Shown here piece after piece: positions 2 to 46,994 of a stretch of 64,000 bases of DNA. The stretch comes from Tepiditoga spiralis. GTDB lineage: Bacteria > Thermotogota > Thermotogae > Petrotogales > Petrotogaceae. Below the pieces are notes generated by a model. The model had not been told where the DNA came from and made no database searches. It saw only the letters and a list, made by a program, of their open reading frames with translations. The stretch covers positions 1,568,501 through 1,632,500 of the forward strand of contig NZ_AP018712.1 in NCBI RefSeq assembly GCF_014701195.1, given 5' to 3'. A program made the translations under genes and the position numbers. The stretch's first letter is position 1, and every line of letters starts with the position of its first letter.

Positions 2-190
2 AAAGTAGTTCTTGCTATGGAAAAGAAAGTAGAAAGAGAAGAAGTTTTAAATCTTTTATCAAATGCTTTTAAAGCAATTGATAAAGCTGCTTCAAAAGGG
101 GTTATTCATAAAAATCAAGCTGCTAGAAGAAAATCAAGAATACATATAAAAGTAAAAAAATATCTTGGTGAAACAGCAGAAAATAATTAA
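2..190 (+). CDS. rpsT: 30S ribosomal protein S20 (bS20), 3' part
   Basis: This is the C-terminal 62 codons of ribosomal protein S20, which binds 16S rRNA in the body of the small subunit. The diagnostic stretch is [20 protein letters not shown] followed by a basic tail. The 5' end lies outside the window. A strong terminator follows 8 nt after the stop, so this is the end of its transcript. Confidence 0.93.
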
Positions 191-7667: not shown

Positions 7668-8054
7668 ATGTTTGAATATGCAACAAATACTTCTACCTCC
7701 ACCACAAATATTGGTGGAGGAAGTTTGCTATTTTCTGGAGTGTTTTCAGTTATTTTTTTAACATTTATTTTAATAATATTTATTATACTTTATTTTTTTT
7801 TGATTAAGCACATGCGTGGAGGTAAAAAAAATAATAGTATAGGAATATTGAAAAAATATTATATAGACAATAATTTTTATATTGGAATTTTAAAAATATT
7901 TAATGAATATTATATGGTGTTATTTGGAAATTCATCTTCTGAAATAATAAAAAAAATGAGTTTTGAAGAAGTTAATGAAATAATTGGTGATGGCCAGAAA
8001 TTTTTTAATACTTTTACAAATTTTTTAAGTAAGGAGAAAGATAAAGGTGAATAA
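7668..8054 (+). CDS. fliO: Flagellar export-gate assembly protein FliO
   Basis: FliO helps assemble the FliP ring of the flagellar type III export gate. This 128-residue protein has a Ser/Thr-rich N-terminus, one membrane helix at about residues 22-48 followed by the basic KHMRGGKK, and a small cytoplasmic domain. Sequence similarity is weak, as is usual for FliO. The call rests mostly on topology and on its place directly before fliP, whose start it overlaps by 8 nt. Confidence 0.75.
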   Translation: MFEYATNTSTSTTNIGGGSLLFSGVFSVIFLTFILIIFIILYFFLIKHMRGGKKNNSIGILKKYYIDNNFYIGILKIFNEYYMVLFGNSSSEIIKKMSFEEVNEIIGDGQKFFNTFTNFLSKEKDKGE

Positions 8055-8802
8055 GAAAAAACTTCTGGCAACTTTATTTTTTATTTTTTTATCTATAGTA
8101 AGCTATACTGAAGACGTTATACCTGGAATTTCGATAAATATTAATCAAAATAACACAGGGACTTTGACGCCTACTTTGTTGATTATATTAATTATATCGG
8201 TTTTGTCAATTGCACCTGGTTTGTTAATGATGCTCACTTCTTTTACGAGAATAGTTATAGTAATGGGATTTTTAAGGCAAGCTATTGGAACAAGGCAAGC
8301 ACCACCAAATCAGGTTTTAGTTTCAATAGCATTATTATTAACTATAATGATAATGTATCCAACTTTTAATAATGTTTATGAAAAGGCAATAGTACCATAT
8401 AATAATGGCACTATTGGTTATGAGAAGGCTTTTGAAAATACTTGGACAGAGTTTAAAACATTTATGTTAAGAGAAATAACTTATCATAAAAATCAAGATG
8501 ATATATATATGTTAGCTTCATCTCTTAAGGTTAAAATAAAAGATATAAAAGATACTCCTTTTCAAATATTAGTTCCAGCTTTTGCTTTAAGTGAACTTGA
8601 AATAGCATTTAAAATGGGAATATTAATTTATCTTCCTTTTATAATTGTTGATATGGTTGTTGCAAGTGTTTTACTTTCTATGGGGATGATGATGATACCT
8701 CCAATATTAATTTCTTTACCATTTAAATTGTTGTTATTTGTTATAATAAATGGTTGGGATTTATTAATGGGAAGTTTAATAAATAGTTTTGCTGGAGGTT
8801 AA
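8047..8802 (+). CDS. fliP: Flagellar export-gate protein FliP
   Basis: FliP forms the core of the export pore with FliQ and FliR. An N-terminal cleavable-type hydrophobic signal (residues 5-20) is followed by the family hallmarks LMMLTSFTRIVIV, LRQAIGTRQAPPNQV and FQILVPAFALSELEIAFKMG. The start is GTG 8047 inside the end of fliO, with AAGGAGAAAG upstream, so translation of the two is probably coupled. Confidence 0.97.
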   Translation: MNKKKLLATLFFIFLSIVSYTEDVIPGISININQNNTGTLTPTLLIILIISVLSIAPGLLMMLTSFTRIVIVMGFLRQAIGTRQAPPNQVLVSIALLLTIMIMYPTFNNVYEKAIVPYNNGTIGYEKAFENTWTEFKTFMLREITYHKNQDDIYMLASSLKVKIKDIKDTPFQILVPAFALSELEIAFKMGILIYLPFIIVDMVVASVLLSMGMMMIPPILISLPFKLLLFVIINGWDLLMGSLINSFAGG

Positions 8803-43279: not shown

Positions 43280-43313
43280 ATTAATGGATAAAAAATATAG
43301 GAGGTGCTTAATA

Positions 43314-44972
43314 GTGAGCATGTTTTGTTATCAATGTCAAGAAACAGCAGGAAATAAAGGTTGTACAGTAAGAGGAGTTTGTGGTAAAACCGAAGATGTT
43401 GCAAATATGCAAGATTTATTAATGTATGTTATGAAAGGAATTTCAATATATAGTACAAAGGCAAGAGAATTAGGTATTGAAAATGAAGAAGTTAATAAAT
43501 TTATTTACAATGGCTTATTTATGACAATTACAAATGCAAACTTTGATAAACAAAGATTTGTGGATTATGTAAAAGAAGGATTAAAATTAAGAGAAGAAAT
43601 AAAAAAGCAATTAGAAACAGCTGGTGGTAAGATAGAAGGTACTTTACCAGATTGTGCAACATGGTATGCAGAAAAAGAAGAAGAATTTGAAAGAAAGAGT
43701 TATTCTCCTGAAGTTAGTGTTTTAGCAACTGAAAATGAAGACGTAAGATCATTAAGAGAATTAATAACTTATGGATTAAAAGGACTTGCTGCTTACTTAG
43801 AACATGCAGTTAATTTAGGATTTGAAGATAAAGATTTATATAAATTTGTTCAAGAAGCTTTAGCAAAAACAACAGATGATACATTAACAGTTGATGAATT
43901 AGTTGCTCTTACACTTGAAACTGGTAAATATGGAGTTAATGCTATGGCATTACTTGATAAAGCAAATACAGAAACCTATGGAAATCCTGAAGTTACAAAA
44001 GTAAATATAGGAGTTGGAACAAACCCAGGTATTTTAATAAGTGGTCATGATTTAAAAGATATAGAAGACTTATTGAAACAAACAGAAGGTACTGGAATTG
44101 ATGTTTATACACATGGTGAAATGTTACCAGCTCATTATTATCCTGCATTTAAAAAGTATAAACACTTTGTTGGAAATTATGGAAATGCTTGGTGGAAACA
44201 AACGGAAGAGTTTGAAACTTTTAATGGCCCTATTTTATTCACGACAAATTGTATAGTTCCACCTAAAAAAGATGCTTCTTATGCAGATAGGGTGTTTACT
44301 ACAGGTGCAGCTGGATATCCAGGGTCAAAACATATTCCAGATAGGGAACCTGGGGAAATGAAAGATTTTTCCGAAATAATTGAAATGGCTAAAAAATGTA
44401 AACCACCAGTAGAAATAGAAAAAGGTGAAATTGTTGGAGGATTTGCACACAATCAAGTTGTAGCACTTGCAGATAAAGTTGTAGATGCAGTAAAAACTGG
44501 CGCAATAAAAAAATTCTTTGTAATGGCTGGTTGTGATGGTAGAATGAAGTCAAGAAGCTACTATACAGAATTTGCAGAAAAATTACCAAAAGATACAGTA
44601 ATATTGACTGCAGGATGTGCAAAATATAGATACAATAAATTAAATCTTGGAGATATTGGAGGAATACCAAGAGTTCTTGATGCAGGTCAATGTAATGATT
44701 CTTATTCATTAGCAGTTATAGCTCTTAAATTAAAAGAAATTTTTGAATTGAATGATATAAATGAATTACCAATAGCATACAATATTGCATGGTACGAACA
44801 AAAAGCTGTTATTGTATTATTAGCATTATTATACTTAGGTGTAAAAAATATACATCTTGGTCCAACATTACCAGCATTTTTATCACCAAACGTTGCAAAT
44901 GTTTTAGTTAAAAATTTTGGAATTGCAGGAATAGGAAAAGTAGAAGACGATATAGAATTATTTTTATCATAA
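43314..44972 (+). CDS. hcp: Hydroxylamine reductase / hybrid-cluster protein
   Basis: Hcp reduces hydroxylamine or NO through a hybrid 4Fe-2O-2S cluster and protects anaerobes from nitrosative stress. Cys5, Cys8, Cys17 and Cys23 (C-x2-C-x8-C-x5-C) are the [4Fe-4S] pattern of the strict-anaerobe type. Hybrid-cluster ligands occur in [27 protein letters not shown] and [13 protein letters not shown] 43314 is seven bases after AGGAGGTG and gives 552 residues, the normal length; an upstream ATG at 43284 would contain that site. Confidence 0.97.
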
Positions 44973-45059: not shown

Positions 45060-45318
45060 AAAAAAAGCGGAGCATTTAAGCTCCGCTTTCCTCTTTGGAT
45101 TATTTCATATACATTGTAAACTAGTTAAACAAATTACAAAAAACATTTTACTTAAACTCATAAAATAAAAGACATGTTTAAAAATACTCACTTACAAGGT
45201 ACAGAATAAATGGATCAACTTAAAAAATCTATTAATAAAAACAAAAAAACCTTTTGTTACTTGAAACAAATTACATATCCAAAGAGGAATAGTTATTTAT
45301 TCAGTAAAAAGGTTTAAC
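45060..45318 (-). ncRNA. Structured non-coding RNA gene 1 (6S RNA-like candidate)
   Basis: A promoter (45325-45353) predicts a start at G45318. The GC-rich terminator stem AAAGCGGAGC/GCTCCGCTTT (45064-45089) followed by seven U residues on the minus strand gives the end. In between, 45277-45289 and 45088-45100 are perfectly complementary over 13 bp (TCCTCTTTGGAT core), closing a 202-nt domain. No reading frame of note is present. A 202-nt RNA with paired ends suits 6S RNA, the polymerase-binding regulator, but I could not confirm a central bubble. SRP RNA, tmRNA and RNase P signatures are absent. Confidence 0.7.
45061..45089 (-). terminator. Terminator of ncRNA 1
   Basis: A 10-bp perfect stem with 6-nt loop, followed on the minus strand by seven U residues. 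It is among the most GC-rich segments of the window and overlaps the 3' arm of the RNA's closing helix by two bases. Confidence 0.92.
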
Positions 45319-45324
45319 ATATTA

Positions 45325-45353
45325 ATTATAACTCTGAATTTTGATTTTGTCAA
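45325..45353 (-). promoter_or_regulatory. Consensus promoter of ncRNA 1
   Basis: TTGACA (45348-45353), exactly 17 bp, then TATAAT (45325-45330) on the minus strand. This is the only perfect consensus -35/-10 pair I found in the window, as expected for an abundant stable RNA. Confidence 0.9.
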
Positions 45354-45400
45354 TTAATTTAAAGTAAATAAAAAATTAATTTTTAAAATTTGAATCTTTA

Positions 45401-45440
45401 AAAAAAAGTCCACTTTAAAAACTTTTGTTTTTAAAGTGGA
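45401..45440 (-). terminator. Terminator with 14-bp perfect stem
   Basis: 45409-45422 pairs perfectly with 45427-45440 (core CCACTTTAAAAAC) with a 4-nt loop, followed on the minus strand by eight T residues. It ends small RNA 2 and any read-through from guaD. Confidence 0.9.
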
Positions 45441-45489
45441 AAAAGTTGGGTTATGTAGCGAGACTGATATTTATGGTTTTTAAAACCAC
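45401..45489 (-). ncRNA. Small RNA gene 2, about 90 nt
   Basis: The predicted transcript starts at G45489 with a small hairpin (TGGTT...AACCA), then about 30 unpaired bases of unusually mixed composition (around 45441-45470, containing CTCGCTACATAACCCAAC). It ends in a 14-bp perfect terminator stem (45409-45440) with eight U residues. The promoter -10 and start block TATAATTAATATGT is identical to that of ncRNA 1. It could alternatively be the end of the guaD transcript or a mobile-element remnant. Confidence 0.5.
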
Positions 45490-45495
45490 ATATTA

Positions 45496-45693: not shown

Positions 45694-46944
45694 TTAAAAA
45701 TTTATTTCTTTTCCATTTAAATATCTTTTTATAATATTTCTATCATCACCAATATATATGAATCTTTGAAGACGTTCTTTTAATGTTAATTCAGTTGTCC
45801 CAAGATTTGAATCGTCTATAATTAATGCATCAAATGAAAAATCAACATTAAATTCTCCTATTTTTCCAAAAAAATCTGATCCTTTTGTAGCCATAAAAAA
45901 AACTTCTTCTGTACTTAAAGGTTTTAAATTTTTATTGTCTTTATAAATTAATTTTGAAAGTTCTATTGCCATTACCATACTTCTTTTTATCGCAATTGAA
46001 TGACCAGCTCCTATATCACTTCCAAGTCCTATATTTAATCCTTCGTTTAAAAGTGTTCTAACTGGCATTATACCACTTGCTAAGTTTACATTTGATTGAG
46101 GACAATGGACTGCAATTACTCTGTTATTTTTCATTAATTCAATTCCTTTTTTTGTAAGGTATATACAATGTGCCATTAAAGTTGGCGTTTGACCAAATAA
46201 ATTATTTTCATTATAAACTTCAGAATAATTATGATTATATAATTCTTTAACCCATTTTACCTCTTTTTGGTTTTCTGAGAGATGAGATTGTATAGGAATA
46301 TTATACTTTATAGCTAATTCTCCGAGACCTTTTAATAATTTTTGTGTACTTGTTGGAGCAAATCTAGGCGTTATTATTGGTTTTGATTTTTTGTTATTTT
46401 TATAATTTAAAATTAATTCTTCGGTTTCTTTTAGAGATTTTTCTGTATTTTCTTTTAAAAATTCAGGACAATTTCTATCCATGTTTACTTTTCCAACATA
46501 TGTTTCAAGTCCATATTTCTCTAATACTTCAAATAATATTTCTGTGCTTTTTTTATGAATTGTTGCAAAAATGACAGCTCTTAATGTTCCGTGTTTTATT
46601 AGATCTTTTGCAAACTCATTGTATATTCTTTTTGCATATCCAATATCTTTAAATTTATTTTCTTCTTTAAAGGTATAAGTGTTTAACCAATCTAATAATT
46701 CTTTATCCATGCCAAGTCCTCTCATAGCATATTGAGGAGCATGTAAATGTAGATCAACAAATGGTGGAATTATTATTTTGTTTTTAAAATCAAGTATATT
46801 TAAATTTTTATATTTAGTTGGAACTTCTTTAAAAATATCTAATATCTTTCCATCATTTATTAGCAAATGAGTATTTTCTAAAAAAGATAGATTGTTTAAA
46901 TTTTTTGAAAAAATAAAGTTTCCTTTAATAATTTTTTTATCCAT
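45694..46944 (-). CDS. guaD: Guanine deaminase
   Basis: This zinc amidohydrolase converts guanine to xanthine and ammonia. The guanine-deaminase pattern DLHLHAPQYAMRG with LLDWLNTYTFKEE is clear. Further metal and substrate residues occur in QSHLSEN, MAHCIYL, HCPQSNVNLASG and GLGSDIGAG. ATG 46944 lies seven bases after AAGGTGG; an earlier GTG at 46956 is part of that site. At 416 residues it is normal. An extended -10 (TGGTAAAAT, minus strand) lies at 46995-47003. Confidence 0.92.
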   Translation of the reverse strand: MDKKIIKGNFIFSKNLNNLSFLENTHLLINDGKILDIFKEVPTKYKNLNILDFKNKIIIPPFVDLHLHAPQYAMRGLGMDKELLDWLNTYTFKEENKFKDIGYAKRIYNEFAKDLIKHGTLRAVIFATIHKKSTEILFEVLEKYGLETYVGKVNMDRNCPEFLKENTEKSLKETEELILNYKNNKKSKPIITPRFAPTSTQKLLKGLGELAIKYNIPIQSHLSENQKEVKWVKELYNHNYSEVYNENNLFGQTPTLMAHCIYLTKKGIELMKNNRVIAVHCPQSNVNLASGIMPVRTLLNEGLNIGLGSDIGAGHSIAIKRSMVMAIELSKLIYKDNKNLKPLSTEEVFFMATKGSDFFGKIGEFNVDFSFDALIIDDSNLGTTELTLKERLQRFIYIGDDRNIIKRYLNGKEINF

Positions 46945-46994
46945 TTTTTCTACCACCTTTATAGTAATATAATAGTAATATTATTCCTGTATAT

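Follow-up and report, generated by a model that had tools for sequence, protein, structure and literature searches.

In bacteria, small RNAs that associate with Hfq and act in trans, such as Spot 42 of E. coli and FsrA of B. subtilis, are encoded in intergenic regions. The msr-msd RNA of retrons has complementary ends, which close an RNA of about 200 nt, and 6S RNA (RF00013, ssrS) also has a ~200-nt domain with paired ends. Ms1 RNA of Actinobacteria, which is ~300 nt long and has a paired core and extra hairpins, indicates that RNAs that bind RNA polymerase can fall outside the definition of 6S RNA (PMC9130861). In the transcriptome of T. maritima, only about a dozen putative ncRNAs have been found, and in none of these could a structure be defined (PMC3636130).

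The locus compared here with these systems lies in Tepiditoga spiralis. The DNA that was analysed, called the window, is a 64-kb stretch comprising bases 1568501-1632500 of the single-contig, 2,502,404-bp genome. The chromosome of strain sy52 is 25.8% G+C, and the organism, a member of the Petrotogaceae (Thermotogae), has a growth optimum of 48 C (PMC7734402).

A candidate small RNA gene between hcp and a guaD-like gene

An earlier note on this DNA had described a TTGACA-17-TATAAT promoter on the minus strand, followed by about 259 nt of non-coding sequence and a terminator. The promoter was indeed found at 45353-45325, and the sequence behind it contains no plausible ORF and runs to an intrinsic terminator. 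The parts of the unit and its two neighbours are as follows.

43284-44972, plus strand: hcp, convergent with the candidate RNA unit and ending at 44972
45060..45087, minus strand: intrinsic terminator with an 8-bp G+C-rich stem, a 6-nt loop and a U tract (sequence and pairing probability)
45088..45100, minus strand: 3' arm of the closing helix, ATCCAAAGAGGAA = AUCCAAAGAGGAA, directly adjoining the terminator
45101..45276, minus strand: U-rich 176-nt interior, 20% G+C (fold no better than shuffles)
45277..45289, minus strand: 5' arm of the closing helix, TTCCTCTTTGGAT = UUCCUCUUUGGAU (shuffles, pairing probabilities, repeat count)
45290..45318, minus strand: inferred start at G45318 and 29-nt leader GUUAAACCUUUUUACUGAAUAAAUAACUA (start-site G preference; pairing probabilities)
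45325..45330, minus strand: -10 box TATAAT, 17-nt spacer (sequence)
45348..45353, minus strand: -35 box TTGACA (sequence)
45694-46956, minus strand: guaD-like amidohydrolase gene, the upstream neighbour of the candidate RNA unit, ending at 45694

The terminator reads AGCGGAGC-TTAAAT-GCTCCGCT-T6, with its end at 45060. Because the guaD-like gene ends at 45694 and the convergent hcp gene at 44972, both flanking genes are separate from the RNA unit. Furthermore, inspection by eye reveals that hcp has a hairpin with a T tract of its own between its stop codon and the terminator of the unit; consequently, no overlap is predicted between the RNA unit and the neighbouring mRNAs. The unit is ~24% G+C and lies within an intergenic region of 13.5% G+C. 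These features of the sequence strongly support the existence of a candidate gene here and the boundaries assigned to it.

The only ORFs within the unit are 25-28 aa long and have TTG or GTG starts. Two of these, of 25 and 28 aa, would encode hydrophobic peptides rich in F, I and L (MFQVTKGFFVFINRFFKLIHLFCTL and MSIFKHVFYFMSLSKMFFVICLTSLQCI), as might be expected if the unit were the mRNA of a type I toxin or another small-peptide gene. However, A+T-rich DNA yields such peptides by chance, none of the 25-28 aa ORFs matched a Pfam family, and no opposed antisense promoter was recognised. In addition, the TTG/GTG starts are not preceded by a good Shine-Dalgarno sequence, whereas true T. spiralis genes have GGAGG-type sites. 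A peptide-encoding function is thus very improbable.

Just upstream of the RNA unit, also on the minus strand, there is another element (45398-45490) in which two perfect hairpins lie around a 31-nt unpaired stretch (AUAUCAGUCUCGCUACAUAACCCAACUUUUU, approximately). A T8 tract follows the second hairpin, the fold has a z of -5.7, and the only promoter candidates are weak (TTAACA-16-TAATAT). It may represent either a ~90-nt small RNA or the 3'-terminal part of the mRNA of the guaD-like gene.

The promoter class

When the pattern TTGACA-16..18-TATAAT was counted throughout the T. spiralis genome, with the pattern read backwards as the control, 49 full-consensus promoters were found versus 2 for the control (~25-fold). 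At least 11 of the 49 directly precede tRNA genes, others precede two CRISPR arrays, one TPP riboswitch, and one L10 leader, and most of the remainder sit shortly before protein genes. Given the excess over the control and the many members that drive tRNAs, CRISPR arrays, the TPP riboswitch, and the L10 leader, the class is real; it consists of working promoters, which often serve stable RNAs. The promoter of the RNA unit is among the few of the 49 that have neither a gene nor a known RNA behind them. In 53% of the 49 promoters, a G stands seven bases downstream of the -10 box, and the RNA unit has a G at this position as well; because of this preference, the start of the RNA is placed at G45318. 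The preferred G often lies within YGT, notably at the promoters of tRNA genes. The anatomy of the unit, together with a promoter class that often drives tRNAs and in which a start-site G is common, backs the earlier proposal of an unannotated, probably highly expressed, lineage-specific ncRNA.

It had also been stated that no other site in the window has a full-consensus promoter. This is correct for a 17-nt spacer, but there is a TTGACA-16-TATAAT at 8209-8182. This second promoter (8182-8209, minus strand, spacer 16) is antisense within the gene at 8047-8802 and has no evident transcript unit behind it; it may be a chance occurrence, with 0.23 expected per window. At another position in the T. 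spiralis genome, outside the window (G000:C1:663934-664053), a full-consensus promoter is followed by ~75 nt before a tRNA-Ser gene. This unit ends in a terminator-like hairpin, GGGUGUGCGAAAGCACCC, and the short G-rich RNA that it would specify (AGGGGGAAUGGGGG) matched no Rfam family.

Folding of the unit and comparison with 6S RNA

The perfect 13-bp helix (45289-45277 with 45100-45088) that had been said to close a 202-nt domain is present as claimed and sits inside the 260-nt promoter-terminator unit. When the 232-nt region was shuffled 300 times, no such helix arose. It is also the only perfect repeat in the 64-kb window with at least 13 bp, at least 5 G/C, and a loop of 50-300 nt, and simulated 64-kb windows contain 0.05 such repeats on average. 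The pair probability of the closing helix is ~0.97 at 48 C, that of the terminator stem is ~1.0 at 37-55 C, and the 29-nt leader is mostly unpaired at 48 C according to the pairing probabilities.

The whole RNA unit folds better than its shuffles (z -4.1), and the 176-nt interior folds just as its shuffles do (z -0.09). The z of the whole unit is therefore due to the closing helix and the terminator only, and the earlier description of a structured RNA is overstated. In addition, the G+C content of the interior (20%) compares with 44% for the T. spiralis tmRNA. A putative pseudoknot between leader and interior (AAACCUUUU/AAAAGGUUU) is not significant, since a helix of at least 9 bp was obtained in 97 of 500 shuffles. 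Taken as a whole, these folding predictions suggest that the RNA is a flexible loop held by a clamp and not a compact, structured molecule.

Given the paired ends and the size, it had been suggested that the RNA might be 6S RNA. Searches with RF00013 yielded no match in the window and none at E<=10 in the T. spiralis genome; as a control, the same library recovered the 6S RNAs of E. coli, B. subtilis, and others, with E. coli ssrS scoring 139.8 bits. Across 103 Thermotogota genomes, RF00013 found no 6S RNA at E<=1, and 6S RNA in this phylum is either missing or too diverged for the Rfam model. In a rod test, in which branching was forbidden and the best rod energy was compared with that of shuffled interiors, the RNA unit gave -36.4 kcal/mol versus -37.6 +/- 4.0 for the shuffles (z +0.29). 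E. coli 6S RNA under the same test gave -80.4 kcal/mol and a z of -4.99. Furthermore, the minimum free energy fold of the unit is branched; the next long arm comes after ~70 nt on the 5' side and after 3 nt on the 3' side.

These results bear on the idea that the unit specifies a diverged 6S RNA, which would bind RNA polymerase holoenzyme via a promoter-like central bubble. The size is about right, the helix pairs the ends, the promoter is strong, and a 6S RNA could be missing from a phylum in which the Rfam model finds none. However, two defining features of 6S RNA are not found, since there is neither a match to RF00013 nor a central-bubble rod better than that of shuffled sequence. In addition, the interior has a very low G+C content for an organism with an optimum of 48 C (PMC7734402), and the RNA is not conserved (see below), whereas a housekeeping RNA should be. 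Thus, the 6S suggestion is already largely refuted, and we consider it extremely unlikely. Another possibility is that the RNA is a lineage-specific, strongly expressed substitute for 6S RNA that would bind RNA polymerase by a different architecture, by analogy with Ms1. This idea is just as unlikely. The T. spiralis unit differs from Ms1 in that it matches no Rfam family, has no common synteny, and belongs to another phylum, and its binding to RNA polymerase would be hypothetical.

Relatives and the probable role of the RNA

A covariance search of the locus with the Rfam models for 6S, tmRNA, SRP, and RNase P RNAs yielded no family match. Because the genome has its tmRNA at G000:C1:2159685-2160038 and its RNase P and SRP RNAs at other sites as well, the unit is none of these three. 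For all other Rfam families, the matches at the locus up to E 10 fall far below gathering and lie mostly on the terminator. A mobile element was also considered and rejected, the unit being single copy and having no match among phages or plasmids. In contrast to a retron, no reverse transcriptase gene lies beside the unit, the neighbours being hcp and the guaD-like gene.

Searches of 20 family genomes, among which there is no other Tepiditoga species, revealed no homologue. BLAST in 61 genomes gave matches that are short, of low complexity, or confined to the terminator, and a search of 103 genomes for the pattern of paired arms gave four matches outside T. spiralis, which resemble coding sequence. 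A covariance model built from the single sequence likewise revealed no homologue in 21 family genomes; its best full-length match (G004:C6, 27 bits) covers the 3' end and the terminator of a gene for a binding protein. The hcp gene is present in 19 of the 21 family genomes (T. spiralis included), and in the closest of these genomes (71% identity), an araC-type gene follows it. A guaD-like gene occurs in one other family genome only, and no such RNA unit lies beside it. The hcp-guaD interval is thus not syntenic in the family. A scan for hcp in the named genome collection returned matches from unrelated phyla only.

With no homologue in any relative, there is no sign of purifying selection, and this counts against a functional sRNA, as does a whole-unit G+C content equal to the window average. 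It could be argued that the unit is decayed or neutral, with a promoter and a terminator that work and an RNA that has no function. Such a view would fit both the complete lack of conservation outside the species in the genomes searched and an interior that is no different from shuffled sequence. However, an exact 13-bp helix adjoining the terminator is unlikely to outlast drift in a 25% G+C genome, and the G+C content of the unit stands well above that of the intergenic region around it. A neutral unit is consequently rather improbable, and a species- or genus-specific sRNA gene is the most likely reading.

We favor, with moderate confidence, an independent intergenic gene for a non-coding sRNA of ~259 nt with clamped ends, which would act as a base-pairing regulator of the Hfq type. 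In this model, the housekeeping RNA polymerase would transcribe the unit from the full-consensus promoter, starting near G45318, and the transcript would end near 45060 at the intrinsic terminator. A 202-nt loop, rich in A+U and for the most part flexible, would then be clamped at both ends by the 13-bp helix, whose stacking on the terminator should have a protective effect on the RNA. This would leave three parts free for Hfq binding and for pairing with mRNA, namely the U tail, the 29-nt unpaired leader, and the U-rich loop. A general resemblance to bacterial trans-acting sRNAs is the basis on which transcription of the unit, binding by Hfq, and regulation through base pairing are inferred, and a base-pairing sRNA appears to be the simplest explanation because of the strong promoter, the clamped U-rich loop, the unpaired leader, and the U-tailed terminator.

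The genome encodes Hfq (PF17209, G000:C1:1565800-1565991, E 3.2e-26), and the marks of an sRNA gene are present at the locus, namely its own promoter, an intrinsic terminator, and no plausible ORF. The unit has these in common with the Hfq-associated sRNAs, along with the U tract of the terminator, the intergenic location, the presence of Hfq in the genome, and a narrow phylogenetic range. It differs from them in that it is longer than most, a long-range 13-bp helix joins its ends, and any target, seed, or Hfq binding of the T. spiralis RNA is putative. As a point against this reading, a search for predicted pairing between 113 gene starts (~5% of genes) and the leader or interior found no more than shuffled RNA gives; the test is underpowered, and real targets need few pairs.

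The same result, together with the large size of the U-rich loop and the resemblance of AGAGG and CCUCUUU in the two helix arms to SD and anti-SD sequences, respectively, might instead suggest a functional ncRNA that works by sequestering a protein, by antisense control of a neighbour, or as a sponge, rather than by Hfq-dependent pairing with mRNA. However, the hairpin and T tract of hcp leave no predicted overlap with a neighbouring mRNA, and no recurring protein-binding motif was recognised. A function of this kind is unlikely, if less so than the other alternatives above, and an Hfq-type base-pairing role is probably the correct one by analogy.

Taken together, the T. spiralis unit is, as judged from its sequence, a fairly ordinary orphan sRNA gene with signals of strong transcription. 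The blank obtained with the Rfam 6S model in the 103 genomes of the phylum is a useful negative result, and the T. spiralis RNA does not fill this gap. Very little is known about the regulatory RNAs of the Thermotogota, and the unit provides a clear candidate at a concrete locus.
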